Positions 6,167 to 29,883 of a stretch of 64,000 nt of DNA are shown here, in pieces. The translations under genes and the position numbers were made by a program. Numbering within the stretch: the first letter of the stretch is position 1; each line of letters begins with the position of its first letter. Source of the DNA: Cytophagales bacterium (GTDB lineage Bacteria; Bacteroidota; Bacteroidia; Cytophagales; Bernardetiaceae). The stretch is taken from contig RDZD01000035.1 in NCBI GenBank assembly GCA_004293815.1, positions 1-64,000 of the forward strand, in the 5' to 3' direction. The notes beneath the pieces were generated by a model that worked only from the letters and a program-made list of their open reading frames with translations, had not been told where the DNA came from and made no database searches.

Positions 6167-6179
6167 CGGCATGTCTTTC

Positions 6180-7234: not shown

Positions 7235-7242
7235 TATTTTTG
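7235..7242 (+). promoter_or_regulatory. -7 box before the outer-membrane protein gene
   Basis: TATTTTTG matches TAnnTTTG and lies 48 bases before the ATG at 7291. No TTG is seen at the -33 distance. Confidence 0.4.
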
Positions 7243-7290
7243 CGACATTCGCTTTAATAAAATTTAGGCTTAAAACAACCCTTAAACGCT

Positions 7291-7965: not shown

Positions 7966-7993
7966 AAAAATTAATTGACTTGTTTTTGAGTGT

Positions 7994-8040
7994 ATAAACC
8001 CTTGTCATCATTTTGCTACGCAAAATGTACGAGGGTTTAT
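7994..8040 (+). terminator. Two-tier hairpin between barrel gene and moaD-like gene
   Basis: The outer stem pairs 7994-8005 with 8029-8040 (12 bp, one G-U pair). A small internal loop leads to an inner stem, CATTTTGC (8009-8016) with GCAAAATG (8020-8027), and a TAC loop. It starts 29 bases after the barrel gene's stop and ends 25 bases before the MoaD-like ATG. There is only a weak T-rich tail. It may terminate the first transcript or be a structured leader of the second. Confidence 0.5.
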
Positions 8041-8064
8041 CGTTTATATTCATCCCATGAACAC

Positions 8065-8310
8065 ATGAAGATAACTGTTCTTTTTTTTGGTATCACCAAA
8101 GACATTGCCCAGACAGATAAGCTAGAATTGAATGCAGCAGACTTTCCCAATTTGGGTGTATTGCGTGCCCATTTGCTTCATTCTTATCCCGCATTAGGCT
8201 CTCTCAAGAGCTTAGCTTGGGCGCATAACCAGACTTACACGCACGATTTTTTAGCACAGCTGGTCCCTAATGACGAAGTAGCTCTGCTCCCTCCTGTAAG
8301 TGGCGGGTAA
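8065..8310 (+). CDS. moaD: MoaD/ThiS-family sulfur carrier protein
   Basis: This 81-residue protein has the beta-grasp ubiquitin-like pattern and ends in the diagnostic SGG. The C-terminal glycine of this family is adenylated and thiocarboxylated to carry sulfur for molybdopterin synthase (MoaD) or thiazole synthesis (ThiS). MKITVLFFGITKDI and the ending LLPPVSGG are more like MoaD. I use the ATG at 8065; a longer GTG frame would run through the hairpin at 7994-8040. No other molybdopterin gene is in the window, so the pathway assignment rests on the protein alone. Confidence 0.8.
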   Translation: MKITVLFFGITKDIAQTDKLELNAADFPNLGVLRAHLLHSYPALGSLKSLAWAHNQTYTHDFLAQLVPNDEVALLPPVSGG

Positions 8311-8362
8311 CAGAGCTACGAGTAACACGGCTTATGCGGTGAATAACTTTACAAAGACTGCC

Positions 8363-8983
8363 CTACCACCAATAGTCCGTGTCTTTTATGCCAAAAGTAA
8401 TAAGTCCAGCAATAGCAGCCAAGATTACTATGCCCAAAAAGCGGCTAGCGGTGCTGCGTCTCTGGGCTACGTCCAGCTCTTCAGGCGTAAGCGCACGCTG
8501 CTTTTCTTCTGCGACATCACTAGGGCTTTTGGGTTTGAGTAGCCGTTTAAACATCCTGATTACAAGATACGTGATGAGGAATATAATCATTAGAGGGAGC
8601 AAGGGCGACAAAAAGCTAACTCCATTGAGACCAGAACCAAGAGCGAACATGAGAAACACAATCCCAAAAAATAAAGTTAGCGCGATACCAAAACCAAAGA
8701 GAATTGAAACGTTCTTAGTTCTGGGATTCTTGTCTTTTATGACTTTTGATACTTTTTTATTATTGGATTTAAGCACTTTGGGGCTATCTTCCTTGATTTT
8801 TTCCCAACGTTTATGATGGGCTTTGTTGAAATGGGATTTTCGCTGCTTTTTAGAGGCTTTCTTGGTAGTTTTCTGCTCGGAAGGCTGGTTGTTAGGCACA
8901 TGCCCAGCGTGTATGGGGCTGTAAAAAAGACTAAACAAGAGCAGAAATACCCCTAGGGTTAGCAGATAAATGGAATGTTTCAT
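8363..8983 (-). CDS. Unknown protein with signal peptide, basic linker and three membrane segments
   Basis: I do not recognise this 206-residue protein. It begins with a signal peptide or signal anchor (about residues 5-25, then SPIHAG). A very lysine-rich stretch follows (about 35-90, with KKASKKQRKSH and KSNNKKVSKVIKDK). Two hydrophobic segments lie in the middle (FGFGIALTLFFGIVFLMFAL and LLPLMIIFLITYLVIRMF) and one near the end (FLGIVILAAIAGLITFG), before a terminal DYWW. The layout suggests a small inner-membrane protein with a positively charged soluble stretch. It is convergent with the moaD-like gene. Confidence 0.65.
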   Translation of the reverse strand: MKHSIYLLTLGVFLLLFSLFYSPIHAGHVPNNQPSEQKTTKKASKKQRKSHFNKAHHKRWEKIKEDSPKVLKSNNKKVSKVIKDKNPRTKNVSILFGFGIALTLFFGIVFLMFALGSGLNGVSFLSPLLPLMIIFLITYLVIRMFKRLLKPKSPSDVAEEKQRALTPEELDVAQRRSTASRFLGIVILAAIAGLITFGIKDTDYWW

Positions 8984-9058
8984 TTTTTTTGTTGTTACTT
9001 AAAGGCATAGTAAATATAGTAGTTTTCAACTAGCAACAAATATTCTTTATCAGAGCTG

Positions 9059-9087
9059 CAAACCTACTAAATGGCATTAAAAAGCAA
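9059..9087 (-). promoter_or_regulatory. Promoter of the three-segment membrane protein gene
   Basis: TAGGTTTG (9059-9066) on the minus strand has a TTG (9085-9087) 18 bases upstream, close to the Bacteroidota spacing. It gives a leader of about 70 bases before the start at 8983. Confidence 0.45.
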
Positions 9088-9270
9088 GCCAATTATCAAA
9101 AAAAGCTATCAGCTGCTGTTCAAAGCCGAACAATAGTTTGAACCTCGTCAATGCAAATCTAGTCAAAAATAATAATAAAAGAGAGAGCTCCTAGAATTTT
9201 TTGTGTAACGTAAAAAGGAAACAACAAGATGCTTTATTCTCTGATTGCAAGAGCCTGAAACAAAAGGATT

Positions 9271-9312
9271 AGCCCATGTTATTAGCCTTCCTTGTGCTAA
9301 ATAACATGGGCT
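9271..9312 (-). terminator. Terminator of the second barrel gene
   Basis: AGCCCATGTTATT (9271-9283) pairs perfectly with AATAACATGGGCT (9300-9312); an inner TAGC/GCTA pairing can shorten the loop. On the minus strand the stem is followed by a T-rich stretch (TCCTTTTGTTTC). It lies 47 bases past the stop of the barrel gene at 9359. Confidence 0.65.
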
Positions 9313-9358
9313 AGCTCTCACTAGGCGTATGAAAAAAGCAATCTTAAAGTACAAAAAA

Positions 9359-10030
9359 CTATTCAGCTGTTTTCAGGGGAAGAGTAAGTGCTATGCGCCC
9401 CGCAATAACGAGATTACGCGTATCTCTGTCTAATTGTCCTGCAACTGACTTTGGCGACTGTATAGGCACAAGTGTGTAACTGGCGCGTATATCACCCACA
9501 AGCCAAAATTTGTTATTCAGCCTGTAATGCATACCAGCACCTCCTAAAATACAGAAGTCCATACTATTATAGTCTTTTTTTATATCTACAGCCGTTTTGG
9601 TGTCTCGGCTTGTATCTTCAGTAATATCCCTAGCCAACAGGAGTTGCCCGATGCTGCCACCAAGCATGAATTTAGGTCGGAAACCTTCCTCACCAAAGAA
9701 AAAATTGCAATAGATGGGTATCTCTACATAATCAAGATTCTGCCTTCTGATGACATTACTGGTGAACCCAGTGTTACCATCAAACTTTCCACCTTTAGGC
9801 GCATAATTAAGCTCCGCGCCGAGACCAAAGCTACTTGTTGCACTATAATTAAGGAGTAAGCCACCGCCTATAGCCAAGCGAGAACCGTAAGAACTCCCTT
9901 CCTTTTGTATAGTGCTATATGAAGGTCCAACAGTGACTCCAAAAGATAATGTGTTTTTGCTTTGTGCGGAAGCCATAAAACTAGTGAAAAACAAAGCTAT
10001 AAATGCAATGCAAGAAAATGATTTTTTCAT
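9359..10030 (-). CDS. PorT-family outer-membrane beta-barrel protein
   Basis: This 223-residue protein starts MKKSFSC, has a signal peptide ending near FMASAQ and then the PorT-like barrel pattern: SFGVTVGPSYST, a GGGLLLNYSATSSFGLGAELNYAPKG-type strand pair (split here by turns), YVEIPIYCNFFFG and a final AGRIALTLPL. It is the same kind of barrel as the protein at 7291-7965 but clearly diverged. The start is the ATG at 10030, 26 bases after the promoter box at 10057-10064; a TTG at 10036 is possible. The gene ends in a good hairpin terminator. The function is unknown. Confidence 0.8.
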   Translation of the reverse strand: MKKSFSCIAFIALFFTSFMASAQSKNTLSFGVTVGPSYSTIQKEGSSYGSRLAIGGGLLLNYSATSSFGLGAELNYAPKGGKFDGNTGFTSNVIRRQNLDYVEIPIYCNFFFGEEGFRPKFMLGGSIGQLLLARDITEDTSRDTKTAVDIKKDYNSMDFCILGGAGMHYRLNNKFWLVGDIRASYTLVPIQSPKSVAGQLDRDTRNLVIAGRIALTLPLKTAE

Positions 10031-10056
10031 AATCAAAATAAATTAAAAGTTATGTA

Positions 10057-10064
10057 CAAAAATA
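10057..10064 (-). promoter_or_regulatory. -7 box of the second barrel gene
   Basis: TATTTTTG on the minus strand matches TAnnTTTG, 26 bases before the ATG at 10030. No well-spaced TTG is visible. Confidence 0.4.
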
Positions 10065-10073
10065 AACAAAAAA

Positions 10074-10544
10074 TTAATTGTGATAGCGGTCTAGTTCACG
10101 TTGCGCATCTTTTTCTTTTAAAGTTTCTCGTTTGTCATAAAGCCTTTTACCACGCGCTAGGGCAATATCCACCTTGGCCCAGCCTTTCTCGCTTATAAAA
10201 ACGCGAGTGGGGACAATAGTCATGCCACTCTCATCTAAAGCCTTGTTGAGTTTGTTCAACTCTCTTTTAGTGAGAAGAAGTTTGCGGTCTATTTTGGGAT
10301 TATGGTTGTGAATATTACCACGCTCATACTCAGAGATATGTAAATTACGTACAAAAAGCTCGTTGTTGAGAAACAAGCAAAAAGCATCTTGCATATTGAC
10401 TTTGCCTTGCCTGATAGACTTAATTTCGGTGCCTTTCAACACCACGCCCGCGCTATATTTGTCAATGAAATGAAATTCGTGGGCAGCCTTTCGGTTTTGA
10501 ATACTCACAAACTTTTGAATATCGGATTTTTTAGGGGTACTCAT
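10074..10544 (-). CDS. smpB: SsrA-binding protein SmpB
   Basis: This 156-residue RNA-binding protein delivers tmRNA to stalled ribosomes in trans-translation. Conserved segments are visible: NRKAAHEFHFIDKYSAGVVL, GTEIKSIRQGKVNM, and the late KGWAKVDIALARGKRLYDKR before a basic tail. The length is normal. tmRNA itself is not nearby. Start at the ATG at 10544; no competing start is needed. Confidence 0.97.
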   Translation of the reverse strand: MSTPKKSDIQKFVSIQNRKAAHEFHFIDKYSAGVVLKGTEIKSIRQGKVNMQDAFCLFLNNELFVRNLHISEYERGNIHNHNPKIDRKLLLTKRELNKLNKALDESGMTIVPTRVFISEKGWAKVDIALARGKRLYDKRETLKEKDAQRELDRYHN

Positions 10545-10691
10545 AACTCTGGGGCATTATGTTTGGGAATGCACTCGTGCCCACTCATACGATTTTTAGA
10601 GGGCTAATGTTACAACACCAGCTTTAGAACGCAGCATTTGTTCAGAGAGCGTCTATTGTAAATGCGTAATAAAGGTTTGATTTTCAGGTTG

Positions 10692-11909
10692 TTATTTACT
10701 AATCCACTGCTCAGGGTCTAGCTTAGTTTGATGTCGCCAAATCTGGAATTCTATTTCTGGTAGATTGTTGGCATTCATACCTGCTGTCGCAATGTTTTCC
10801 TTCTGCTTCACCTTTTGCCCTATTTGTACTCGCACATTTTTTAAACGTCCATAAACTGTAAAATAGTCTCCGTGCTGAATGATAATCATGAAACCGCGCC
10901 CTGGAATATCACTGATATCCACTACTTTGCCCGCAAAAACAGAGCGTACTGGTTGGTTGGCCGTGGTGCGTATATCCACGCCAAGTTTTTCTATTTTTAG
11001 CTTAGAGTCTTTGTCGTTACCGTAAGTTTGAAGGCCAAATCGTCCTGAAATAAAGCCCTCAACCACTGGCCAAGGAATTCGTTTTTTAGATATCACAAAA
11101 TTAGCTGAAATCTTACGCTCATCGGGTGTAAGCGAGGCCGAAAAGGCAGCCGCTTTGATGCTTTCCGCTATGAGTTTTTCCATTTCATTGAGAGACTCTT
11201 GCTCAGAGTTGAGTTGCTGCAATACCTCTGACTCTTTGGTTTTTAGCTCTGTGATAACCGTTTTTTGTGAGCTTTGCAAAGAAGAGAGCTCTTGTGTACG
11301 GCTGCGCTCCATACCCAGCAAGTCTTGCTTTTGTAGTTTTTGTTCTGCCAGCTGAGCTTTGCGCTTATTCAGAATGTCCTTTACTCGATTAATCTGTGAA
11401 AATTGTTCTTTGCGTGTGGCATCATAAATTCTGAAGTAATGAAGGCGTGCCAGAAACTGGTTTAAGCTGTTGGCCGCAAATACAAAAACAAGTCTATCTA
11501 AAGTTCCCACTGACTTATAGGACGCATAGATCATGTTTTTGTATTCATTTTTGATATTTTTATAATCTTGCTCTAGTGCTTCCACAATGTAGGAGTTTTC
11601 TTGTACATTGCGTTCAATGAGCTTGATTTCACGCTGAATAACACTGATAAGAGCATTTTTTTGATTGATTTGGCCGTTGATTTCAGCTAACTTGTCAAGC
11701 TCTTGTGTGCGTGTTTCGCGGGTTTGTCGTAGGGTGCTGTTGGTTTTTTTGATTCGGCTCATAATCGCTGCACGCTCTTTTTCAAGAGCTTTTTTGCTAT
11801 CGCTATATTGAGCGCAAAGCGGAGAATAAAACCCAAGCACACAAATAACTAGGCCAATAAGACTAGTTGCTATGCGTGTTTGTAAGGAGCCAATAAACCC
11901 TAATATCAT
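10692..11909 (-). CDS. envC: EnvC-like murein hydrolase activator (degenerate M23)
   Basis: This 405-residue protein has an N-terminal signal or anchor segment, a long coiled coil (about residues 35-260, rich in E, K, Q and L) and a C-terminal LytM/M23 domain (about 285-400). In active M23 peptidases the zinc is held by HxxxD and HxH. Here the first histidine is missing around KLGVDI and the HxH position reads YGRL, so the domain should not cut peptidoglycan itself. This is the state of EnvC, which activates cell-division amidases. The start is the ATG at 11909. DinB-like gene 11916-12422 ends just upstream, so the two are probably one operon. Confidence 0.85.
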   Translation of the reverse strand: MILGFIGSLQTRIATSLIGLVICVLGFYSPLCAQYSDSKKALEKERAAIMSRIKKTNSTLRQTRETRTQELDKLAEINGQINQKNALISVIQREIKLIERNVQENSYIVEALEQDYKNIKNEYKNMIYASYKSVGTLDRLVFVFAANSLNQFLARLHYFRIYDATRKEQFSQINRVKDILNKRKAQLAEQKLQKQDLLGMERSRTQELSSLQSSQKTVITELKTKESEVLQQLNSEQESLNEMEKLIAESIKAAAFSASLTPDERKISANFVISKKRIPWPVVEGFISGRFGLQTYGNDKDSKLKIEKLGVDIRTTANQPVRSVFAGKVVDISDIPGRGFMIIIQHGDYFTVYGRLKNVRVQIGQKVKQKENIATAGMNANNLPEIEFQIWRHQTKLDPEQWISK

Positions 11910-11915
11910 CAAATA

Positions 11916-12422
11916 CTACTTAATATGGTGGTGCTTCACTGTAGCAGGCGCAACTCCTAGGTTTTCAATAATGCTCACTGAATGGAAAGCCTCCTTTATG
12001 CCTATTTTGATGATAGCTAAGTGGTGTATAGCGTGTTCTATGTTATATGCAAGTTCGCGACCCCAATTAGAGTTAATTTCTGTGGGTACTTCGTCGGCAT
12101 CAGGAGTGAAATAGACCACCAAGCTCAGTGGGTTATTGATTTGGTAAGTGTCTAGTAGAGCGCGATAAGTGTTTAACTTGCTTTTTACAAATGGAATTTC
12201 AGTTTCTAGTCTCAAGTCGCGTTGGCGGCGGTCGTAACAAACACAATTTGTGCCCTGCTGAGAAAATAAGCATTCGTAAAACTCTACAATATGGCGAACG
12301 TGCTGGCCTATTGAGCTTCCTGAAAGAATAGGAAGCGATTGAGAGTATTGGGCACTGCTGAGGCGAGAAATTTGCTCTGTAATTTGGTCAAAAATAGACG
12401 CGGTTGCCGAAATAATGCTCAT
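11916..12422 (-). CDS. DinB-like metal-binding protein
   Basis: This 168-residue protein resembles the DinB/YfiT four-helix-bundle family, whose members bind a divalent metal with three histidines. Candidate ligands are His in SSIGQHVRHIVEF (first third) and the two histidines in NIEHAIHHLAI (last quarter). DinB-like proteins include thiol-dependent transferases; no substrate is evident here. I take the ATG at 12422, since the longer frame starts with TTG. Its stop is 6 bases before the EnvC-like ATG, implying co-transcription. Confidence 0.7.
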   Translation of the reverse strand: MSIISATASIFDQITEQISRLSSAQYSQSLPILSGSSIGQHVRHIVEFYECLFSQQGTNCVCYDRRQRDLRLETEIPFVKSKLNTYRALLDTYQINNPLSLVVYFTPDADEVPTEINSNWGRELAYNIEHAIHHLAIIKIGIKEAFHSVSIIENLGVAPATVKHHHIK

Positions 12423-12505
12423 TTTTTGGGGTAGTGTTTTATGGAACAAAGAAAGAGATGAAAAAATAACAACAAGCTAAAATTTCAACATGCTCTTTCA
12501 GGCTA

Positions 12506-12513
12506 CAAAGTTA
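12506..12513 (-). promoter_or_regulatory. -7 box upstream of the DinB/EnvC pair
   Basis: TAACTTTG on the minus strand matches TAnnTTTG, 83 bases before the ATG at 12422. The nearest upstream TTG is at a poor spacing. Confidence 0.35.
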
Positions 12514-12620
12514 TAGCAAAAGCATAACAAAACGTAATTTTAACAAAACATTTTTGGAAAAGCCTTAACTTTACTACGTATGCCGCTAAGTTTACTGTTG
12601 CTTTTCAAAGATTTCTAGCT

Positions 12621-13742
12621 TTAAAATGGATCAGAATAATCAGGATTTGTCAAAAACTTTTCGTCTGTTAGCATTTTAAGAAAAGTCAGAATATCTGCTT
12701 TTTCTTCTTTTGTTAGACCCAATTTAATGGGGTCACCGGGGTTGAAGCGAGGCTCATTAGAAGCAGCCACAATGAGCTGGTCTAGGGTAGCACTTCGTTT
12801 CACATGCTTGTCGTAATGCTCAAGCACCTCCTCGATGGTTTTGAAACGACCGTCGTGCATGTAGGGAGCCGTTTTCATGATGTTACGCAGGGTAGGTGCT
12901 TTGAACTTACCTTTATCTTTTGGATTACCTGTAACGGCCATAAGACCTTCCTTCAAATTGTCGTCTGTATCCAAGCCGTTGTTATGAAAGCCACTGAATC
13001 CCAGATTATTGCCTGCCAAGCGTACTGGAAGGTGACAGTCGCCACAGTTTGCGCCCCTAATACCCGCTATGGGGTCGGGGTGATTAAAAAACAGGCGCAT
13101 ACCCCGCATTTCAGCATCTGTAGGGTTGTATTCCCCTCTCAAAAATTTGTCATAAGGCGAGTCTTGGCTAATAAGCGTGCGTTGAAATTGTGCCAGAGCC
13201 TTGGTGATCAGGTCAGAAGAGATTTTATCTGTGCCGAAAGCGCGAGCAAATAGTACTGGGTAGCGTGAATCAGATTGCAATTTACTGACTGCTTTGGCTA
13301 TGGCTTGGTTCATTTCATTAGGGTGTTCCATAGGCATAATGGCCTGTTTTTCTAGTTGTTCGGCCTTTCCTGTCCATGTTAAACGAACCTCCCAAAGTAG
13401 ATTGGCAATGCTCATAGCACCTACATCTGTTTGACGGCCTTCGAAACCTTGACTAAAAGCGCGCCCATCAGTAAAGGCTTTGCTTTGTTGATGACACGAG
13501 CCGCAAGAAATGCTGTTATCTACTGAAAGTTTTTTTTCATAAAAGAGCATCCTTCCTAAAGCAACGCCCCCTTCGGTCAATGGATTATCCACTGGCATCA
13601 AATAATCGCCAAAATAATAAGGAATCCGCATTTTATAGGGCTCATTGCTCAAAGGGATTTCCTTTTCGCCTTTACAAGCTATTACAAAAAGAGATACCGC
13701 AAAACCAAAACTTATGATTTGAAAGCAACGTTTCAGCCACAT
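12621..13742 (-). CDS. Dihaem cytochrome-c peroxidase family protein (lipoprotein)
   Basis: This 373-residue protein has a lipoprotein signal (LFVIAC, Cys about residue 23) and two c-type haem sites, SCGSCH and NCGDCH, the pattern of the CcpA/MauG family. A late YMHDGRFKTIEEVLEHY segment supplies the methionine axial ligand and the usual C-terminal helix. Such enzymes reduce hydrogen peroxide in the periplasm with electrons from small cytochromes, or, as MauG, oxidise proteins. Nothing beside it suggests a MauG role, so peroxidase is the simpler reading. It has its own promoter and is divergent from the dehydrogenase gene. Confidence 0.88.
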   Translation of the reverse strand: MWLKRCFQIISFGFAVSLFVIACKGEKEIPLSNEPYKMRIPYYFGDYLMPVDNPLTEGGVALGRMLFYEKKLSVDNSISCGSCHQQSKAFTDGRAFSQGFEGRQTDVGAMSIANLLWEVRLTWTGKAEQLEKQAIMPMEHPNEMNQAIAKAVSKLQSDSRYPVLFARAFGTDKISSDLITKALAQFQRTLISQDSPYDKFLRGEYNPTDAEMRGMRLFFNHPDPIAGIRGANCGDCHLPVRLAGNNLGFSGFHNNGLDTDDNLKEGLMAVTGNPKDKGKFKAPTLRNIMKTAPYMHDGRFKTIEEVLEHYDKHVKRSATLDQLIVAASNEPRFNPGDPIKLGLTKEEKADILTFLKMLTDEKFLTNPDYSDPF

Positions 13743-13775
13743 ATTGTTCTTTTGATTAAAATTCTATGTAATATG

Positions 13776-13783
13776 CAAAGATA
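13776..13783 (-). promoter_or_regulatory. -7 box of the cytochrome peroxidase gene
   Basis: TATCTTTG on the minus strand matches TAnnTTTG, 33 bases before the ATG at 13742. Confidence 0.5.
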
Positions 13784-13799
13784 AAGCAATAATTACTTA

Positions 13800-13828
13800 T
13801 TGTATTTCTATTCACTCCTTTATATTTG
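13800..13828 (+). promoter_or_regulatory. Promoter of the hydroxyacid dehydrogenase gene
   Basis: TTG (13800-13802) and TATATTTG (13821-13828) are 18 bases apart, close to the Bacteroidota consensus. The leader to the ATG at 13870 would be about 38 bases. It sits back to back with the minus-strand box at 13776-13783. Confidence 0.55.
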
Positions 13829-13869
13829 ATAAATTTTTAATATTTTTAGCCAGTGTGCCCTCATAGCCA

Positions 13870-14853
13870 ATGGCTTATCCATATCACATGAATATAAACA
13901 AACCGTTCAAAATTCTAGTGGCTGATACATTTCCCGCTCAAGCCATTAAGCAGTTGGAACAAGCAGATTTTGCTGTGAGCAATAAGCCTCATATACAGCC
14001 CCAAGAACTTCTGGAAGAGGCACATCAATATGAAATCCTCATTATTAGAAGTAAATGCAGACTCAAAACCGAATTTTTTAAGAATCCACAAAAGCTAATG
14101 CTCATTGGGCGGGCTGGTGCAGGCTTAGATTTGATCGATTTAGAAGCTGCACATGAAGCTGGAATACATATAGTAAACGCACCAGAAGGCAATAAAGATG
14201 CCGTAGCAGAGCATAGTTTAGGCTTGATGCTAAGCTTATTACACAAAATTTGGGCTTCAGCCCAAGATATTAGGCGTGGGGTGTGGGATAGGAACAAGCA
14301 TACAGGTTTTGAAATAAAAGGTAAAACCATAGGCTTGATTGGCATGGGCAATATGGGAAGAGCCACCGCTCAGCTTTTACAAAACTTTGGGTGTAAAATT
14401 TTGGCTTATGATCGTGTTCAGATGCTGCAAGGCTTGCCAAGCTATATTACCTCTGTGAGTTTAGCACAACTTAAACAAGAGGCTGATATTGTGTCATTTC
14501 ATATACCGCTAGACGAACAAAACTACCAGTTGGTGAATGAAACTTACCTCAACGCGTTTAAAAAAAGCATTTATCTTATCAATACATCTCGTGGTGAAAT
14601 CATAGACCATAGCTGTTTGTTGCCTTTGTTAAACGCCCAAAAGCTCCTTGGGATTGGCCTAGATGTGTTTGAGAATGAGAAAATTGAAACACATACGCCA
14701 CATCAAAAATTACTCTATGATCAACTTCGTCAGGATGACCGCGTCATTATGACTCCACATATTGCAGGCATCACGCATGACTCTTTCGAAAAGATAGGCT
14801 CAGTACTGGTTCAGAAAATTCTGAGTTGGCGTAGCTCGTTAATTCAGAATTAA
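13870..14853 (+). CDS. D-2-hydroxyacid dehydrogenase (phosphoglycerate dehydrogenase-like)
   Basis: This 327-residue NAD-dependent enzyme has the D-isomer-specific dehydrogenase fold. The cofactor site reads GLIGMGNMGRATAQLL with an acidic residue after it (LAYDR). The catalytic Arg is in INTSRGEI, the Glu in LDVFENE and the His in TPHIAG. Similar length proteins include SerA without its ACT domain, which oxidises 3-phosphoglycerate in serine synthesis. No other serine gene is beside it, so the substrate is inferred only. Two in-frame ATGs exist, at 13870 and 13888; the second gives a protein starting MNINKPFKI. Confidence 0.85.
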   Translation: MAYPYHMNINKPFKILVADTFPAQAIKQLEQADFAVSNKPHIQPQELLEEAHQYEILIIRSKCRLKTEFFKNPQKLMLIGRAGAGLDLIDLEAAHEAGIHIVNAPEGNKDAVAEHSLGLMLSLLHKIWASAQDIRRGVWDRNKHTGFEIKGKTIGLIGMGNMGRATAQLLQNFGCKILAYDRVQMLQGLPSYITSVSLAQLKQEADIVSFHIPLDEQNYQLVNETYLNAFKKSIYLINTSRGEIIDHSCLLPLLNAQKLLGIGLDVFENEKIETHTPHQKLLYDQLRQDDRVIMTPHIAGITHDSFEKIGSVLVQKILSWRSSLIQN

Positions 14854-15187
14854 AAATATGGGTTTGAGACTCTTAAAAATCTAACAAAAGAGTAGCGATG
14901 CTTCAAGTTGATAGCTGTATGACTGGCAATGTGTGTTTATGTCATGCATAGCACCAAGGATAAGCTCGATACAAATGATCTTTCAGACCTCAAACCGAAA
15001 AGCATTTTACTAGCTGAGGAACTTTTGTAGAATCAAAAACTTTATTTGAACCAACGAAAGTTTTTTTCATCTAGGGCTTTTTATTCATAAATTTTCCGCA
15101 ACTTTGCAAATGATTTTTGAGGCTCAAGGCTCAAACGCCTTAAAAAGATTGCACACCAGAACACTATCCAATTATTGACTAAATTTC
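14854..15187. other. Intergenic region (334 bases)
   Basis: No gene is visible. The only promoter-like site is CAACTTTG (15099-15106), one mismatch from TAnnTTTG, about 80 bases before the next ATG. A weak ACTCTT/AAGAGT inverted repeat lies just after the dehydrogenase stop. Confidence 0.5.
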
Positions 15188-17296
15188 ATGGCTGCTGAGC
15201 ATTCAGAATCGGTACGTTTTTTTACAGAATATTCTTTGTGGTGGATTCTGCCCGCCGTCTTAGTCGCTTTAGCCTATGCTTGGGGTCTGTACAGCCGTCA
15301 GGCTCCTTGGACAGCTACCCTTAACCGTCTGTTGGCTGGAAGTCGATTTGTGTTGGTGTTTTTAGTGTTGCTGTTGTTATTGGGCTGGTTCGTTAAGCAA
15401 ATTAATAATCGCACTGAAAAACCAATATGGGCTATTGCACTAGACAATTCAGAATCTTTGCGTTTAGTCATGGATTCTGCTCAGATAAAAAAAGCATTAG
15501 AAGTTTGTGCCAAGGCTACTCAGAATCTGGAAAAAGCAGGTTTTGATGTGCATCTTCACACACTCAACAGCTCTACTGAGCTTCCTTCCGCGCAACTCAC
15601 AGGCATACCCTTTACGCACGATGGGAGTAACCTAAGCGAGTTGATGCGCAAAGTGCGTAGTCGCTATGAAAACGAGAACCTTGTGGGGACACTGCTTATC
15701 TCGGACGGCATTTTTAATCAAGGAAGCGACCCTGCCTACCAAACATATCCTTTTGAAGTAAGTGCGCTTGGGCTGGGTGATACAGTTCCTCAGCGTGATG
15801 TAAGCCTCAAAGCTGTTTTTCATAACAAAATCTCTTACCTAGGCAATAAATTTCCTCTATCTCTAGAAATAGCTCAAAATGGCTTTTCGGGACAACAAAC
15901 CACAGTTAGCGTGAGCCGAAACGGTAACACGATAGCCTCTCAAAACCTGCGCTTTGCGCCTAATAACACCATAACCAAATTAGATTTTCTGATTGATGCC
16001 ACTGAAAAGGGCACACAACATTATGTGGTGAAAGTTCAGCCTCTAGCAGGAGAATTTACTACGCAGAACAATAGCAAACACGTTTATATTGATGTCATTG
16101 ACAGCAGAGAGCGTGTGTTATTAGTGGCTTCTTCCCCGCACCCCGACATCAAAGCTCTGCGTTCGGCTGTGGTTAAAAACAGCAACTATGAGTTTACGCT
16201 GCACATTCCAGGCATACACCAAACTAAGTTTGAGAGCCAATACGACTTAATTATTTTTCATCAAGTGCCAGATAAAAAGAATCTGACTACTGCCCTTATG
16301 AATGAACTTTTGTCCAAAACCAAGGCAACTCTATTTGTTACAGGGCTTTTGACTAACTACCCCGAGCTAAACAGACTCAACACGGGTGTAAAAATTCAAA
16401 CATTTGGTAATCAAACGGATAAAGTAGTTCCTGCTTTCAACCCTGCTTTTAATAGATTTGTTTTTGAAGATGATAAAAAGGAGGCTTTAGCCAACTTTCC
16501 ACCTCTCACAGTGCCCTTTGGTGATTTTCAGGTACAAGGCAAAACAGATGTTTTGCTCTACCAGCGTGTGGGGCGAGTTCAAACCAACAAACCACTGCTC
16601 ACGCTTAATGAAACAGAAAACAGGAAAACCGCTTTGCTTTTGGGCGAAGGGGCGTGGAGTTGGCGTGTACAAAACTATGAAGATCAAGAAAACTTTGCTG
16701 CTTTTGATGACTTGATTACCAAAACAGTGCAGTATCTTTCGACCAAAGAAGATAAAAGGAAGTTTAGAGTAACTCCTTCAGAAACTGAATATTACGACAC
16801 AGAACCAGTGGTATTAGAAGTGGAGGTTTACAACGATATTTATGAGCCTATTTATGGACAAAAAATAAATTTGCAGATAACAGATGAAAATAAAAACACA
16901 AGAAACCTCAGCTTTGTAAATGGAACAGCTGGTTATAAGCAATATATACAAGCCTTACCACAAGGTATTTACAAGTTTAAGGCCACCACAACGCTTAACG
17001 CTAAGGAAGAAACCTCCACAGGTCAGTTCATTGTAAAAGCCTTAGACATAGAGGCTATTAACACCACCGCTGATTTTGCATCTTTGCGAAACCTAGCCAG
17101 CAAAAACAATGGGCAGTTTTATACAGAATCCAGCCTAGAAGCACTCCTTAAAAATTTGAGTGAACGAAAAGCCATTAGCCGAATACACAGCAGTGAAACT
17201 TTCGAGGAGGTTATTGATTTGTGGTGGTTGCTTGTCCTGCTCTTGCTTTTGGCCTTTTTGGAATGGGGGGTGCGCAAATACAAAGGTGCGTATTAA
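15188..17296 (+). CDS. BatA-like membrane protein with von Willebrand A-like fold
   Basis: This 702-residue protein has two N-terminal membrane segments (about residues 16-36 and 50-68) and one near the C-terminus (about 675-695, LWWLLVLLLLLAFLEWG). Between them lies a large extracytoplasmic part. Its first part resembles the vWA-type fold: AIALDNSESLRLVMDS is at the place of the metal-site strand and TLLISDGIFNQGS at a later strand, but the classic DxSxS reads DNSES. This layout is like the BatA/aerotolerance-type proteins and the glutamine amidotransferase-like membrane proteins of Bacteroidota. No BatB-E or MoxR gene is beside it. The function is unknown. Confidence 0.7.
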   Translation: MAAEHSESVRFFTEYSLWWILPAVLVALAYAWGLYSRQAPWTATLNRLLAGSRFVLVFLVLLLLLGWFVKQINNRTEKPIWAIALDNSESLRLVMDSAQIKKALEVCAKATQNLEKAGFDVHLHTLNSSTELPSAQLTGIPFTHDGSNLSELMRKVRSRYENENLVGTLLISDGIFNQGSDPAYQTYPFEVSALGLGDTVPQRDVSLKAVFHNKISYLGNKFPLSLEIAQNGFSGQQTTVSVSRNGNTIASQNLRFAPNNTITKLDFLIDATEKGTQHYVVKVQPLAGEFTTQNNSKHVYIDVIDSRERVLLVASSPHPDIKALRSAVVKNSNYEFTLHIPGIHQTKFESQYDLIIFHQVPDKKNLTTALMNELLSKTKATLFVTGLLTNYPELNRLNTGVKIQTFGNQTDKVVPAFNPAFNRFVFEDDKKEALANFPPLTVPFGDFQVQGKTDVLLYQRVGRVQTNKPLLTLNETENRKTALLLGEGAWSWRVQNYEDQENFAAFDDLITKTVQYLSTKEDKRKFRVTPSETEYYDTEPVVLEVEVYNDIYEPIYGQKINLQITDENKNTRNLSFVNGTAGYKQYIQALPQGIYKFKATTTLNAKEETSTGQFIVKALDIEAINTTADFASLRNLASKNNGQFYTESSLEALLKNLSERKAISRIHSSETFEEVIDLWWLLVLLLLLAFLEWGVRKYKGAY

Positions 17297-21770: not shown

Positions 21771-23072
21771 TTATTGTGTTTTTTTGACCAATACAATGAT
21801 TTGCTCAAAGAATTTTTCAATTAAAGTGCGCTCCTCTGTAATAATTTCCACCGCGCCCTGCATGTCGGGCCTAAACGGCAGATATTGTTTACTGTCTGTC
21901 TTTAGTCCTTGTGTAAAGCGCAAAAACACCGCATACTTGTTGTCTTTTGCTTGCATATCTATATTTTTAACTTGAGCCATTAAACTTCCACAGCGGGCAT
22001 GTGGAAAAGCTTCTAATTTAACTTTTGCAGATTGTCCAATTGTGAGTTTGCCCACAGATCTCCCATCTATTTGCGCTATGGCATAGACGTTTTCTTCAGA
22101 GGGAATAAATGTTAGAACCGTTTCACCTGCCTTGAGTTGCTCAAAAACAACTTTGGGTTTGGGCATACTGACCTGGCACGAGAAGGGTGCAAGTACGAGG
22201 TGATGCGTTTTCCACTCTTCAGTTTTTTTACGTAAATCAAGGAGGGCAGATTTTAAATCGGTTAGGAGTCTAAAGACTTGTTCGTTGTATTGAATGTCGA
22301 GTTCGCTCAAGCTGCGTTGAGTTTGTGCAATTTGCAGCTGGCCATTAATTTTGGCTGCGCGGCTTTGCTCAAATGCACTTTTCTTACTCAAAAGCACACT
22401 TTTAGCTTGTAAAGCGTCTTTTTTTGAAATAGCACCAGCCAGTGCCAGCAAGGAGTCGGTGGTGTGGTGATGTGAATTGATGCCAAGCTCTGCAATTTGC
22501 AGTTCCATTTGACGCTCGAGAATTTCAACCAGCTCTGAGCGGTGTATGATTTCGTTTTCCAATGCCATTTTCTTTTTTAGATAGGCATTTTGCTCACAGA
22601 AAAGGTGGTACTCGCCAATCTTTTTTACAAAACTAAGGGCATCGGACTGTAAAAATCCCAAGCCTGTTACAGCAGCAATGTCTCTAAACTTGGACTTATC
22701 CTTGCGCCAAGTGGCTGTATCTTGTGTATTGATGCTGCTCACAAGCTTGTCAAAGATGAGCATACTGCGAAAGTCTGCCGAGCTTTCTAAAATGAGTAAA
22801 GTGTCGTTTTTTTGAACTCGGTCGCCTGGCTGTATGCCAACAAGGGCTATGCGTGCGTTTACGGGTGATGTAAAGGCCACATTGCCAACGTTATTGTACA
22901 ATACGACTGTCCCCGAGGCTATTTCAGGGTAGCGTATAAAAAACGAGAGCAGCAACACTGTGGCCAAAGCACCCAACAGCACACCGCCGCCAGAGCGCAA
23001 TAGCCACGACGGAGGCGACGAAAGCAGAGAGTCTGTGGCGGGTGAGTAAAGGGTTTGAGAGTTGAGTGGCAT
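21771..23072 (-). CDS. HlyD-family membrane fusion protein (export cassette)
   Basis: This 433-residue periplasmic adaptor bridges an inner-membrane exporter and an outer-membrane channel in type I-like secretion. It has a short cytoplasmic N-terminus, one membrane segment (about residues 25-45, GGVLLGALATVLLLSFF), a lipoyl-like half (GTVVLYNNVGNVAFTSP and GDRVQKNDTLLIL), a long coiled coil (about 90-275) and the second lipoyl and barrel parts (LAPFSCQVSMPKP, then GETVLTFIPSEE). The ATG at 23072 gives this layout. The gene follows the C39-VKOR-thioredoxin gene after 27 bases, completing the cassette behind the leader peptide. No ATPase of the bacteriocin-exporter type is in the window. Confidence 0.85.
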   Translation of the reverse strand: MPLNSQTLYSPATDSLLSSPPSWLLRSGGGVLLGALATVLLLSFFIRYPEIASGTVVLYNNVGNVAFTSPVNARIALVGIQPGDRVQKNDTLLILESSADFRSMLIFDKLVSSINTQDTATWRKDKSKFRDIAAVTGLGFLQSDALSFVKKIGEYHLFCEQNAYLKKKMALENEIIHRSELVEILERQMELQIAELGINSHHHTTDSLLALAGAISKKDALQAKSVLLSKKSAFEQSRAAKINGQLQIAQTQRSLSELDIQYNEQVFRLLTDLKSALLDLRKKTEEWKTHHLVLAPFSCQVSMPKPKVVFEQLKAGETVLTFIPSEENVYAIAQIDGRSVGKLTIGQSAKVKLEAFPHARCGSLMAQVKNIDMQAKDNKYAVFLRFTQGLKTDSKQYLPFRPDMQGAVEIITEERTLIEKFFEQIIVLVKKTQ

Positions 23073-23099: not shown

Positions 23100-24602
23100 T
23101 TATTGATTCACTGCAAAAAACATCAAATCTTCTAAACGGTAAGAAGGCGGCAGAATATGACCATTGACGATAAATGCTGGTGTATGTGTTATGTTAGCAA
23201 CCTGATAAAATGCGTGATGCTTTTCTAGCGCATTTTCTGTTTGAAACTTATCAAGCCCATTTTTACCAAGCTCTTTTTCTACAAACTGACGGTTTGGGTC
23301 TGATGCGTCAGAAGAAAAAGCATAGCAAATGCGAAGCGAAAAGAGTCCTCCAAAATTTTTGAGCATCTCCTCCACTGTGCGGTGTGCTGTTTGACAAGGC
23401 GCACACGATGGGCGGCTTATCATCACGATGTTAAAATCAGATTCGGTGTTACCGTACAGAAAATCAGCAGGTGCAGCATTCTGGTCTATGGCAGGGCTAG
23501 ACTTGAGCGCGAAAAGAAAGGCATCTTGAGCATGTAAAAAAGCCGTCAATCGTGTGTGTGAATACACATTCAACTGCCTTTCGGCAAAATAAAGAGCAAT
23601 AGTACAGAGCACAAGGTAAGTACTTAAACCAGACAATAGCAAAGGTACAGATGCAGAAAGAAAAGTTTGAGCAACAAAAAAAGTAGTGTCAGCGTACAAA
23701 AAGGGCATCGTGTAAGCAAACAAAACGGCAACAATACCTAAGCAAAATAGGCACATTTTTTTTTGCTTAAATCCTTGTATGTAAAGTGAATAAAAACCAA
23801 CAGGTATGCCCAACAAGGAGAGTAATTGAACTAGCTCGTAAGTAGCATTGGCAGAAAGTACGTCGGGCGAAAACACAAAACTCAAAACGGAAAAAGTAAA
23901 AAAAGCAAAGGCCGCTTCTGCCCATGTGTAGCTTGAAGCCAAAAATGCTTTCCTCTCTTTTACTATTTCGCTACAGTTCTTGTTGCCCAAAACTGTGCAA
24001 GCGTTTCGGAAAAAATTATTTTTGGGTAAATTTTCGCCTAAAAGCAGCAGAGCAGATATGGCCACACCTAAAAGCGACAGTACAAAAAAGGCTAGGGCAG
24101 ACAAATTACCAACAAGCAAAAAGCATACACGAGCGCAAAGTAAAAAAACAAGCAAACAGAAAAACGCATTTTGTAGAAAGGTATTTCGCTTATAGGATTT
24201 ATCTTTATGTCTATTCTCTTTCAATTGCGGCTCACCACTCTGTTCGGTTTTTTCCACAAGGAGTGCTTTTCCTGTCCAACTCTGACAAAACTCTTTGCGA
24301 CTGACCGCTTCAGAATTTTTTTTGGCAAAAATATAAAAGCTAGCCCCTTGTATTTTTTCAAGGACAACCCACTTGTTTCTGCCCTGCCCCAAGTCTAGTA
24401 GAGCCAGAGCGGGCAAGGGTATTTCTTCGAGCTGCTCTTCTGTCAGGTCTACCGCTAGGGTATCTACTCGGTAAGCTGCAAGCACATATTTCAAAAAGGG
24501 AATACTGCCGTCACTGTGCTTACACAAGCTTGTGAGCTGCGTATCTGTGTAAGCCACACCCGCAAGGGTGAGCAGACGCGCGATGAGAACTTGCACAGTC
24601 AT
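23100..24602 (-). CDS. C39-like / VKOR / thioredoxin fusion
   Basis: This 500-residue protein joins three parts. Residues 1-120 resemble the C39 leader-peptidase fold (VQVLIARLLTLAGVAYTD and WVVLEKIQGASFYIF), but the catalytic Cys is absent and the usual His position is Trp, so it should bind rather than cut. Residues 145-345 form a five- or six-segment membrane VKOR domain with loop cysteines C202 and C210 and the quinone-linked C284-L-F-C287. Residues 385-500 are a thioredoxin domain with C400-A-P-C403 and cis-Pro P475. Such fusions oxidise secreted proteins, passing electrons to quinone. The ATG at 24602 lies 1 base after the stop of the thioredoxin-like tail upstream, so translation is probably coupled. 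An in-frame upstream extension to 24716 overlaps that tail. Confidence 0.87.
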   Translation of the reverse strand: MTVQVLIARLLTLAGVAYTDTQLTSLCKHSDGSIPFLKYVLAAYRVDTLAVDLTEEQLEEIPLPALALLDLGQGRNKWVVLEKIQGASFYIFAKKNSEAVSRKEFCQSWTGKALLVEKTEQSGEPQLKENRHKDKSYKRNTFLQNAFFCLLVFLLCARVCFLLVGNLSALAFFVLSLLGVAISALLLLGENLPKNNFFRNACTVLGNKNCSEIVKERKAFLASSYTWAEAAFAFFTFSVLSFVFSPDVLSANATYELVQLLSLLGIPVGFYSLYIQGFKQKKMCLFCLGIVAVLFAYTMPFLYADTTFFVAQTFLSASVPLLLSGLSTYLVLCTIALYFAERQLNVYSHTRLTAFLHAQDAFLFALKSSPAIDQNAAPADFLYGNTESDFNIVMISRPSCAPCQTAHRTVEEMLKNFGGLFSLRICYAFSSDASDPNRQFVEKELGKNGLDKFQTENALEKHHAFYQVANITHTPAFIVNGHILPPSYRLEDLMFFAVNQ

Positions 24603-24603: not shown

Positions 24604-26398
24604 TCACAAAGCCTCCTCAATGGCATTGCTGAGTTTGAGCAGGGTGTCTTTGTAGGCCCCAGCTTCTTCAAAAACAATTTCGCCTTGGCGGTTGATAACC
24701 ATATTGACTGGAACAAAATACGCCTTGTTAATCAAATTGTTTTTCTTTGAAAAAACCCGCCAGCTTGGCTGCATTGTCGCGGGTGGGGGCCAAAAAGACC
24801 ACATCAGAGCTGTATGAAAACCTTTTTTTTAGGTCGTTGAGTTCTGGCATTTCCTTGATACAGGGCACGCAGTAAGTACCCCAAAAGTTCAGAACCACCA
24901 CCTTGCCTTTCAGAGAAGACAGGCTCACTTCCTTATCGCTGCCATAAAGCTTAAAAAGGGCTTCGGGCGCGTGTTTGGTTTCCACAATAAATTTATCTAT
25001 GCCATTTTGTACCAAATAATCTTGGTAGCCCTCCTTGCTGCCGTGAATGCTGATGTAAGTGCCCTCAATCTTCTCGAAAAGGCTATCCAATTGGGTGAGC
25101 TTGACCAGCTCTGTGTATACCTTGAGGGCTGAGTCGGGCTGGTTGGTTTGGACGAGCGACTGCGCTAAGATATTGCCATGAATTGTTATATTATTCCCCA
25201 AAAAGCTTAATTTTTTATAATTGGCATGATAGAGTTCAAACACGGGGCGTATAAATGTCATAGTTTCAGTGTATCTTTGTTTAGAGAAGCAGTGTTGGGC
25301 TACATCCCAATAATGTTCAAAGAAATTAGCACTATCTATCACTGTGGCATTGATACAAATATCGCCTCTTTCAAACGCTTTGATGATTTCTTTTTTTCTT
25401 GCAGCTGCACTATCTATTTTTCCATAAGCGTGAATAAGATTGGTGAGCTTGATATACTCATGCCAATACGGATATTTATAGTAATTTGAAAAGTGGTGGT
25501 GTGTGCTCAAAGCCGCCTCATAACTGATAGTATGTGCTTGAACATAAGGTGTAGATGATGCTAAGTCAGCAAATGCTGAGTATGGATACTTCGCCATATA
25601 TTCGTGGAAATCTATATGATACCCACCCCAAATTTCATTGTAATAAGAACTAAGAAGATAGAATTGTGTTGAGTTAGGGTATAGTCCTGCAAGTAGCTTC
25701 AAATACTTTAAGCCTTGTACTTTATCGCCTGCGGCAATGTATAAGACAGCTACAGCTGCCAAATATTCGAGGTCAGTTTTAGGCTTGGCCTGTAACTCCA
25801 AAAGAGCTGCTTTTCCGTATCTTTCAAAATAGTAAGTAGTCGAGTCAAAACTCTTATATTCTGAAAACCGCCTCAAAAGACAAAAAAACAGATTACTAAC
25901 ACCAACTGCGGTGTATGTGCCACTGTGATTCGCAAAAGCGGCTATATCTTTTTCTGTGCAATCTAAAAGAATTTTTCTTGAGGCTAGCCTGGCCCCAACC
26001 AGAAATATCTTTCTTTCAGTGAAATCAGGGCGCAATGAGTGAATCATCGTAACTCCACTGCTGTGCTCCACACTGTTTTCTTGAACTACCCACTTTTTAG
26101 GGTATTCAAAATAAGAGACTATGATATCCAAAACATTGCTATTCAATGCTAGTTGAATAGTAAAAAAGCTATCTTTTTGTGAAAGTCGTTTGTAATCAAA
26201 CCAGCCATAAGTACTATCATAGTTGTAAGACACCAATGCAACAACATTTGTTGTTGAAGCGTATTTGGGTTTATACGTTAGAGTTACTGTTGTATCAGCT
26301 TTTTGCGCCTTGAGGGTGGGCAGTGCACAAAGCGTGAATAGACATGCAAGAATGCTCAAACGAGTAGTTTTTAGGATTATTGAAGTCATAATGTCCAT
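24604..26398 (-). pseudogene. TlpA-like thioredoxin protein with frameshifted C-terminus
   Basis: The main frame (26398 to 24728) encodes 556 residues: a signal peptide, a long alpha/beta N-terminal region and a thioredoxin domain with the CxxC C510-V-P-C513 (WGTYCVPCIKEM). It stops right after FKEKQFD. The missing end continues in another frame (down to 24604) with INKAYFVPVNMVINRQGEI, which supplies the cis-Pro and last strands of TlpA-type folds. About 8 residues usually found between these parts are also absent, suggesting a small deletion rather than one base error. The signal and linker region has no other defect. If the break is real, the product lacks its cis-Pro. No TAnnTTTG box lies upstream, so expression probably comes by readthrough from the leader peptide gene. 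Confidence 0.7.
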
Positions 26399-26445
26399 TT
26401 CTTATTACGTTTAAGTCGCATAAAAAATTTAGTAAAATTGCAAAA

Positions 26446-26490
26446 AAATGCGGTTCGGTAAATATGCCATATAACGACCGAACCGCATTT
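26446..26490 (-). terminator. Strong intrinsic terminator behind the leader peptide gene
   Basis: AAATGCGGTTCGGT (26446-26459) and ACCGAACCGCATTT (26477-26490) form a perfect 14-bp stem with a 17-base loop. On the minus strand the stem runs straight into a T-rich tail (TTTTTGC). It lies 56 bases after the peptide's stop and 47 bases before the thioredoxin gene's start, so most transcripts would cover the peptide only. Confidence 0.85.
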
Positions 26491-26546
26491 GGAAGTGTTT
26501 GGTACAACAATTTGTTGCAACCATCATACGCAAAAACAGCTTCTGC

Positions 26547-26768
26547 TTAGAAGCAGCCTATGAAACCAGGTAGGTTACCAAACATGTTGCTGATGTAGTT
26601 ATTATTAAAGTTCGGCGAACCAACTGTAAGCACCCCGACAATTCTTCGCCCCTGTCCGGGATTATCTGTGTAACAATTAACCTGGGCATTCTCACTTCCC
26701 CCCGCCACGTTTTTAGCTTGTGTGTTGCTGAGTTCAAATTTACCGAATTTTTCTTTTAAAGTTTTCAT
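26547..26768 (-). CDS. Double-glycine leader peptide precursor
   Basis: This 73-residue peptide has a 24-residue leader, MKTLKEKFGKFELSNTQAK then NVAGG, which fits the Bacteroidota pattern K-L-x-K-F-E-L-S-x-x-Q and ends in a Gly-Gly processing site. The predicted 49-residue core is rich in Gly, Asn and Pro and holds exactly two cysteines, core positions 8 and 48, so one disulfide could join its ends. No Ser/Thr cluster suggests a lanthipeptide. Behind it come a terminator, then thioredoxin, C39-VKOR-thioredoxin and HlyD genes. I infer an exported disulfide peptide; whether it is a bacteriocin or a signal cannot be seen. I take the ATG at 26768, because the longer frame would run through the gcvP terminator. 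Confidence 0.75.
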   Translation of the reverse strand: MKTLKEKFGKFELSNTQAKNVAGGSENAQVNCYTDNPGQGRRIVGVLTVGSPNFNNNYISNMFGNLPGFIGCF

Positions 26769-26811: not shown

Positions 26812-26855
26812 TCCACTAGCAACGCCCTCTTTTTTGCAAGAACGCTGCTAGTGGA
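26812..26855 (-). terminator. Intrinsic terminator of gcvP
   Basis: TCCACTAGCA (26812-26821) pairs with TGCTAGTGGA (26846-26855), with further pairs inside the loop (CG/CG after one mismatch). On the minus strand an eight-T run follows directly. It ends gcvP 16 bases after its stop and lies only 43 bases upstream of the leader peptide's ATG. Confidence 0.85.
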
Positions 26856-26871: not shown

Positions 26872-29800
26872 TTAAACTTTGGCTTCGTCTTGTTGATAGG
26901 CTTCTATGGGCGCACAAGCACACACGAGATTGCGGTCGCCGTAGGCGTTGTCCACACGTCCCACCGAAGGCCAGAACTTGCGTTCACGTACCCACGCAAG
27001 CGGGAAAGCGGCCTTTTCGCGGCTATAAGAACGCGTCCAGTCGTTGGCGCATATCACATGGAAAGTGTGAGGAGCTTGTTTCATCACGTTGTCCAGTGCG
27101 TCCACTTTGCCTGTTTCCACTTCTTCTATCTCCTGCCTAATTTGAATGAGCGCGTCGCAAAGACGATCCAACTCGGCTCTGGTTTCGCTTTCGGTAGGCT
27201 CTATCATAATGGTACCCGCCACCGGAAAAGACATCGTAGGCGCGTGGAAGCCATAGTCCATCAATCGTTTAGCAATGTCTTCTACGGTAATCTTCTTGAA
27301 TGCACGGCAGTCCACAATCATTTCGTGTGCCGAACGACCTTGCTTGCCCACATAAAGAATAGGATAATGTGCCGAAAGATGCTTTTGAATGTAGTTGGCA
27401 TTCAAAATGGCGTATTTGGTGGCTTCGGTGAGTCCTTCGCCTCCCATCATGGCTATGTAAGCATAAGAAATGAGCAAAATGTCAGCACTGCCATAAGGAG
27501 CAGCCGACACTGGCTCCACTGCCATGGCTCCGCCAGTTTTCACCAGAGGGTGGCCAGGCAAGAACGGTGCTAAATCTTTCACTACGCCGATAGGCCCCAT
27601 GCCTGGGCCGCCTCCGCCGTGCGGAATACAGAAGGTTTTGTGCAAATTGAGGTGGCAAACATCTGCGCCAATTCGGGCAGGACTCGTAAGGCCCACCTGC
27701 GCATTCATGTTCGCGCCGTCCATATACACGCGACCACCATTTTTGTGAATAATGTCGCAAATTTCTTGAATACCCTCCTCATACACGCCGTGCGTGGAGG
27801 GGTAGGTAACCATCAAGCAAGAGAGGTTGTCTTTATACTTTTCGGCTTTTTCTTTGAGGTCTTGAATGTCCACGTTGCCATTTTCGTCGCACTTGGTAAT
27901 GACCACTTCCATACCAGCCATAACCGCACTGGCAGGGTTGGTGCCGTGGGCAGACGAAGGTATCAAGGCAATGTTGCGGTGGGTGTCGCCACGGCTCAGG
28001 TGGTAGGCGCGTATGACCAAAAGACCCGCATACTCGCCTTGCGCGCCCGAGTTGGGCTGCAAAGACATGGCATCAAAACCCGTTACCTCACACAACCAAG
28101 CTGAAAGTTCGTCAAGAATTTCTTGATAACCTTCGGTTTGATTTTGAGGTGCAAAAGGGTGAATATTGCAAAACTCTGGCCATGTGATAGGAATCATCTC
28201 GGCGGTAGCGTTCAGTTTCATGGTGCATGAACCTAGCGCAATCATGGAGTGAGCCAAAGATAAATCTTTGTTTTCCAGACGCTTCATATAACGAAGCATT
28301 TCATGCTCTGACTGACAAGTGTTAAAGATTGGGTGAGTGAGGAAATCCGACTGACGGCGCAGGCTTGTAGGCCACTCCACTTCCAAAGAGTTTGAAGCAG
28401 CCTTAATCAGGCTATCTAACTCATTTTTTACGCTTTGAGCAAGCATAGGTTCACCATGTTGTACACTAGGTGTGCTTTGTCCTAAGCTTGGCAACACATT
28501 GGATGTTACCCCAGGAACACTGCTCTGAAACTTGGCTGTAGCCTCTGCAAAAATATAAGTGATAAGGCGCACATCATTTATGCTTGAGGTTTCGCCAAAA
28601 GAAATACCTATTCTTTGGTCTTGGAAATAGCGGAAGTTATAACCATGTTTTTCGGCTATTTCGCGAATGGCGAACTGCATTTTCTTGTCGTGTGCGTCTA
28701 TGCAAAGACAGTCAAAAAAATGTTCTGTGGTATTATTAAATCCTAATTTTTCTAAACTTGTGGCTGTTAGCTTAGCCAAACCATGTGTTTTACTGGCTAT
28801 TTTACGTAAGCCATCAGGGCCGTGATACACCGCATACATACCTGCCATGACGGCCAGCAGGACTTGTGCCGTACAAATGTTTGAGGTGGCTTTTTCACGC
28901 TTAATGTGTTGTTCGCGGGTTTGAAGAGCCATTCTAAGAGCAGTGTTGCCCGCAGAATCTTTTGAAACACCAATAATGCGTCCTGGCATAAAGCGTTTGT
29001 ACTCTTCTTTGGTAGCAAAAAAGGCAGCATGAGGTCCACCAAAGCCCATAGGCACGCCAAAGCGGTGTGAAGAACCAAACACTACCTCAGCTCCCATTTC
29101 ACCAGGAGGCGTAAGCATAGTGAGTGCCAGCAAGTCTGTGGCAAAAGCACAACGGACGTGTTGCTCCTTAGCTGCTGCTACAAAGTTGCTGTAATCTTCT
29201 ATACTGCCGTCTGTTGCAGGATACTGAAGTAAAGCACCGTAAAGATCTGGATTGGTCAAGTCCACCGTTTTATGGTTGCCAATAATCAGCTTAATGCCAA
29301 CAGGCTCTGCCCTGTTTTTGAGTACCGCAATAGTTTGTGGGTGACAGAGTTCAGACACAAAAAATGAGTTGGCATTTTTCTTTTCCTTAGGTGGCGTAAC
29401 GTGCAGCATACGCATAGCCTCGGCAGCGGCAGTGGCCTCGTCTAACAGTGAGGCATTAGCTAGCTCCATGCCTGTAAGATCTAAAACCATTGTTTGATAG
29501 TTCAGAAGAGCTTCCAAACGGCCTTGAGCAATTTCAGCTTGATAAGGCGTGTAGGCTGTATACCAACCTGGATTTTCTAAAATATTTCTTAAAATAACAT
29601 TAGGTGTGATGTTTTCATGATACCCAGCACCTATAAAAGAGCGAAAAACTTTGTTCTTGGCAGCTTTGTTCTTCAGGTCACTCAAAAACTGGTGTTCTGT
29701 TTTGGCTGCAGGCAAGCGCAAGGCTTGTTTGAGTCGGATATGTGGCGGCACTGTTTGCGAAATGAGTTCGTCTAAAGATGCTGCACCCACGTATTTAAGC

Positions 29801-29883
29801 ATATCCTGGGTTTCATGCGAATTCGCAGAGGGACTGTTATGTCTTTTTACAAAATGCTCTGCGTGATTGATATCAATCTTCAT
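26872..29883 (-). CDS. gcvP: Glycine dehydrogenase (aminomethyl-transferring), P protein
   Basis: This 1003-residue pyridoxal-phosphate enzyme decarboxylates glycine and passes the aminomethyl group to lipoylated GcvH. It is the single-chain form with both halves. The N-terminal half opens with the RHNSP motif and contains [20 protein letters not shown]; the C-terminal half holds the cofactor lysine in [19 protein letters not shown]. The length is normal. gcvH and gcvT are not in the window. Start at the ATG at 29883; I found no clear promoter or glycine riboswitch upstream. Confidence 0.96.

Follow-up and report, generated by a model that had tools for sequence, protein, structure and literature searches.

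A terminator-like hairpin between a GG-leader peptide gene and redox partner genes in Bernardetiaceae, and its possible role in setting precursor dosage

The window (the whole 64,000-nucleotide stretch analysed) carries, on its minus strand, a short peptide gene followed by a terminator-like hairpin and 3 tightly packed partner genes (Table 1). The upstream neighbour, which we take to be gcvP from reading its translation rather than from a family search, runs in the same direction and ends in a strong terminator of its own, the stem of which stops 43 nt ahead of the peptide ATG. The core of the peptide holds 2 cysteine residues. Its leader, which ends in GG, is common to peptides of unlike cores (34 genes in 9 genomes), as in GG-leader precursors. 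Curated leader models scored the 73-residue peptide below their cut-offs (best NCBIfam model, 13 bits with a cut-off of 32; Pfam Bacteroid_pep, 12.9 with a cut-off of 25), and a PHROGs search with it returned no match.

Table 1. Minus-strand features of the locus, in window coordinates.
Feature	Coordinates	Strand	Details and basis
Presumed gcvP (glycine dehydrogenase), upstream neighbour	26872..29883	minus	ORF
Strong terminator behind gcvP	26812..26855	minus	18 pairs, loop 8, T8; -30.1 kcal/mol
GG-leader precursor peptide gene	26547..26768	minus	73 aa, leader MKTLKEKFGKFELSNTQAKNVAGG; ORF, leader common to relatives
Terminator-like hairpin	26446..26490	minus	perfect 14-bp stem, arms 26490-26477 / 26459-26446, loop 17 nt
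Seven-T run	26442..26448	minus	three T within the 3' arm of the stem; sequence
Space from hairpin tail to tlpA-like start	26399..26441	minus	43 nt, no TAnnTTTG; box scan
TlpA-like thioredoxin-domain protein, TPR-like N-terminal part	24728..26398	minus	frame-disrupted; ORF and domain match
C39-like, VKOR and thioredoxin fusion	23100..24602	minus	ATG at 24602, directly behind the tlpA C-terminal frame
HlyD-family membrane fusion protein	21771..23072	minus	domain match

Only part of the AhpC-TSA/Redoxin domain is matched by the TlpA-like protein. In the region 24604-24810, its reading frame is broken near 24730, after the part that holds CxxC, and the remainder of the domain is encoded in a different frame down to 24604; relative to the intact protein of the congener G001 (L056:6007-7770), approximately 15 residues are lost there, and the break could stem from either mutation or misassembly. 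In the fusion protein, no cysteine of the C39-like domain is conserved among 9 relatives. The preliminary description had called the downstream genes export genes, which holds for HlyD, the sole export component among them, and not for the other 2. The congener has no equivalent of this HlyD. A C39 peptidase ABC transporter (PCAT) was found neither in the window genome G000 (85% complete) nor in the congener (99% complete): the only C39 match in the former is the C39-like domain of the fusion, and the latter has none. In each of the 9 other genomes of the family, by contrast, a reading frame of PCAT size gives a strong C39 match. With no C39-peptidase ABC transporter found in cluster or genome, the locus does not class as a PCAT-exported peptide cluster, nor do the 7 window proteins scanned, which contain no LanB or LanC domain, point to a class I lanthipeptide. 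Given the disrupted frame of tlpA and the unsuccessful search for a PCAT, the window's copy of this system may be undergoing decay. A search of the named genomes with the C39-VKOR protein yielded only 5 loci, which were kept out of the statistics. At one locus of a relative (L049 of G002, 3500-16100), modules of a GG-leader peptide gene and a large TlpA-like gene are repeated upstream of the genes for C39-like-VKOR and HlyD.

Recomputation of the coordinates and pairing of the hairpin agreed with the preliminary description, which had placed a perfect 14-bp stem with a T tail 56 nt behind the peptide stop codon (ending at 26547). All 14 positions pair, and the predicted fold energy is -21.8 kcal/mol (Vienna, 61-nt stretch); the stable stem with its directly adjoining T run has the sequence form of an intrinsic (Rho-independent) terminator. 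Perfect 14-bp inverted repeats with loops of up to 20 nt occur twice in the window, compared with a mean of 0.0 in 60 dinucleotide shuffles. The only other one (9270-9313) lies just 3' of a minus-strand gene ending at 9359. The hairpin is present once in the 3.0-Mb assembly, even at 3 mismatches, which rules out its origin as a dispersed repeat. Searches for known RNA families found none in the window and none in the loci of 7 relatives. Between the peptide stop and the hairpin lies a near-palindrome (GCAACAAATTGTTG, 26505-26522, minus strand); a similar palindrome is found inside tlpA near 26253, each occurring once in 464 kb.

TAnnTTTG is given as the sigma-A -7 box of Flavobacterium in the available passages of a transcriptome study (PMC9723704). 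It is also a usable promoter signal in the window genome: among window genes that have 120 nt or more of upstream space, 17 of 29 are preceded by it, versus 3 of 29 on the antisense strand and 2 of 41 coding stretches, and, over 464 kb of the genome, it precedes 43 of 69 divergent genes versus 19 of 248 coding stretches. No exact box is present in the gap between the peptide gene and tlpA (26399-26546), which bears out the earlier statement that none separates the stem from the thioredoxin gene. This absence is weak evidence, since 26 of 69 well-separated genes of the window genome (about 4 in 10) lack an exact box. The 150 nt upstream of the window's peptide gene contain none either. One match lies within the peptide gene (TAAATTTG at 26742), where it is made by leader codons, and a transcription start there would still cross the hairpin. 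A plain sigma-70 scan was uninformative (10 sites versus 13.7 expected).

We compared the arrangement across relatives that we infer to belong to the family Bernardetiaceae. A leader profile gave 44 matches in 11 genomes, among which we kept the 34 with E ≤ 2.7e-4 (9 genomes) and set aside the 10 weaker ones; 2 of the 34 appear truncated (L132:3617, 28 aa; L130:3401, 23 aa). With a hairpin defined as T-tailed, with dG ≤ -10 and within 190 nt of the stop, 22 of the 34 peptide genes are followed by one; across 40 shuffles, the corresponding number averages 0.17 and never exceeds 2 of 34. Removal of 14 genes without a codirectional ORF in the next 330 nt and of 2 ahead of leuS left 18 peptide-to-partner gaps. 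In a first count, which took next genes up to 250 nt away, a hairpin was present in 14 of 19 gaps, versus 11 of 69 controls (Fisher 3.7e-6); in the wider count (up to 330 nt), 13 of the 18 gaps had one, versus 21 of 177 controls (relatives, 8 of 41; window genome, 13 of 136; Fisher 7.1e-8); and among box-free gaps only, the counts were 13 of 17 versus 13 of 112 (Fisher 6.7e-8), although all these Fisher counts overstate independence, as the genomes are related and the modules paralogous. By genome, the hairpin gaps number 1/1 in G000, 1/1 in G001, 2/3 in G002, 4/4 in G005, 1/1 in G006, 0/2 in G007, 0/1 in G008, 2/2 in G009 and 2/3 in G010; the remaining 5 of the 18 gaps have no such hairpin. 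In the congener, a 13-pair hairpin with 1 mismatch stands 25 nt ahead of the partner gene. Elsewhere in the order, outside this family, a T-tailed hairpin follows 3 of 7 peptide genes.

The place of the hairpin appears to be kept more closely than its sequence. None of the 13 hairpin gaps contains TAnnTTTG, and the distance from hairpin to partner ATG is 14-48 nt in all 13, which leaves little room for a separate partner promoter; distances below 50 nt occur in only 2 of 22 other codirectional hairpin gaps of the window genome. The 2 gaps ahead of the unrelated leuS have a hairpin, 157 nt and the box. The 22 hairpin sequences are mostly unlike, with only 7 pairs above 0.6 and one of these reaching 0.8. 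In one orthologous pair (L049:12797 and L052:8531), an A-T versus C-G difference affects both sides of the stem.

Upstream of the precursors, relatives differ from the window. Among the 34 upstream regions, 16, all from Bernardetia-type genomes, align over approximately 100 nt and share a -7-like box followed by ATCAAACTTACT-N-AGTAAGT. This block (TAnATTTG...ATCAAACTTACT-N-AGTAAGT) lies approximately 70-100 nt ahead of the start at L049:3557, 6038, 8445 and 12797 and at 12 other Bernardetia-type peptide genes. In 11 genomes, all 7 exact matches to the pattern derived from it lie ahead of GG-leader-type peptide genes; at one mismatch, most further matches lie elsewhere and a reversed control also matches. 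The window genus has no match to the pattern (0 in G000 and 0 in G001). Since RNAalifold predicts 0 pairs in the block, we regard it as promoter- or operator-like. A second, different block (GCTACTACTTC..AATAAA..) is common to L050:10687, L050:11212 and L051:5713, and the sigma-54-like pattern used matched nothing ahead of the 34 peptide genes. The earlier description of the peptide unit as self-contained is weakened by the lack of a recognisable promoter for the window's peptide gene, although 16 of the 34 genes in relatives have the common promoter-like block. In Bernardetia, many precursors appear to have their own start signal and their partner genes show none, a pattern that fits leakage from one into the other.

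We propose that the hairpin is probably a leaky intrinsic terminator, past which a fraction of transcription continues into the tlpA-like, C39-like-VKOR-thioredoxin and hlyD genes, so that precursor would be made in excess of its partners. Most RNA polymerases arriving from a start site upstream of the hairpin would stop at approximately 26442, yielding a short precursor mRNA whose 3' end is protected, and a minority would read on to produce the messages of the 3 partner genes, for which no promoter is recognisable. Leaky termination would thereby set the precursor above the partner proteins, in line with a common means of producing plenty of peptide and little helper protein, and such dosage may be its purpose.

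Alternatively, the hairpin could be a full terminator behind which the tlpA-hlyD operon has its own promoter, one other than TAnnTTTG, read by an alternative sigma factor or from a degenerate box. The 43-48 nt past the window hairpin are just enough for a promoter that overlaps the T tract, boxes with 1 mismatch lie at 26448 and 26431, and one relative's gap (L052:9456) has the box and no hairpin; moreover, sigma-54, TAnnTTGY and ECF-type promoters together account for 7% of start sites in Flavobacterium psychrophilum, according to the available text of PMC9723704. We nevertheless consider a separate promoter unlikely, as at most 34 nt remain ahead of the partner ATG in 11 of the 13 hairpin gaps, none of which holds the box. 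Much the same low probability attaches to the view that the hairpin terminates little and that its main effect is to guard a processed precursor mRNA against exonucleases (segmental stability). In several relatives the T tail of the hairpin is weak, as in GTTATTTA, TATTAAAA and AATTATAC, and such hairpins may protect 3' ends more than they terminate; the window hairpin, by contrast, has 7 T residues, close to the 8 of the gcvP terminator.

Regulation at the hairpin seems improbable. If the hairpin were a regulated attenuator, a factor or an alternative fold would open the terminator and switch the partner operon on when the peptide needs maturation, and a second inverted repeat between the stop and the hairpin (approximately 26520-26505) does pair in the predicted fold. 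However, the 14-bp stem is retained in that fold, and the hairpins of relatives often stand 10-30 nt past the stop, where there is no room for an antiterminator. That the hairpin is a repeat or a chance palindrome with no role is scarcely credible given its single copy in the genome, the shuffled expectation of 0.0 and its recurrence in relatives. Leaky termination is the reading that we regard as probable.

The layout has a precedent outside Bacteroidota. In nisin clusters, the maturation genes lie downstream of the precursor gene and in the same direction. A terminator right after the precursor gene has already been reported for these clusters: the available passages of one study place a predicted Rho-independent terminator directly behind the precursor gene for nisin A, Z, Q, P, U, E and O (PMC9958725). 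The window hairpin, placed between precursor stop and partner start in the same direction, has the layout of the nisA-type attenuating terminator; the nisin-type systems, in contrast, are Gram-positive lanthipeptides, and here a GG-leader peptide is combined with thioredoxin, VKOR and HlyD partners. A precedent for partial termination comes from the same phylum, and with the same TAnnTTTG box: in F. psychrophilum, RNA beyond an intrinsic terminator is a recorded transcript class with 67 transcribed regions (PMC9723704, available passages), that class being defined by RNA-seq and the window case by sequence. In Bacteroidales, the bacteroidetocins are described, in the text available, as clusters of GG-leader precursor and PCAT, 2 of them without PCAT (PMC10352776); they resemble the window locus in the GG-type leader and the nearby secretion genes, and differ in that here no PCAT was found in the cluster or genome. 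The available text of that paper contains no occurrence of thioredoxin, vitamin K, HlyD or terminator. The terminator passages of papers on the plantaricin C and Listeria clusters offered no read-through precedent, and the literature search, as far as the sources were accessible, found no case of the same layout in GG-leader clusters of Bacteroidota.

A broader reading, which we put forward tentatively and think rather unlikely, is that the GG-leader precursor is a plug-in cassette nearly throughout this branch of Bacteroidota, made up of its own promoter-operator block (in Bernardetia), a leader-core gene and its own terminator, and placed before promoterless redox-maturation genes. The terminator would then be a selected dosage valve whose sequence turns over at a constant place; in the window genus, this valve would persist even without the usual peptidase exporter, implying another route of export or processing.

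The window genome presents an orphan form of the system, in which the peptide, the VKOR fusion and HlyD are present, the TlpA-like gene is broken and a peptidase exporter was not found. For this understudied peptide system as a whole, the finding suggests a rule: a terminator of changing sequence and fixed place divides the precursor from its redox partners. If this is true, expression ratios would be predictable from the gaps, and the hairpin, in addition to the leader, could serve to detect precursor genes.
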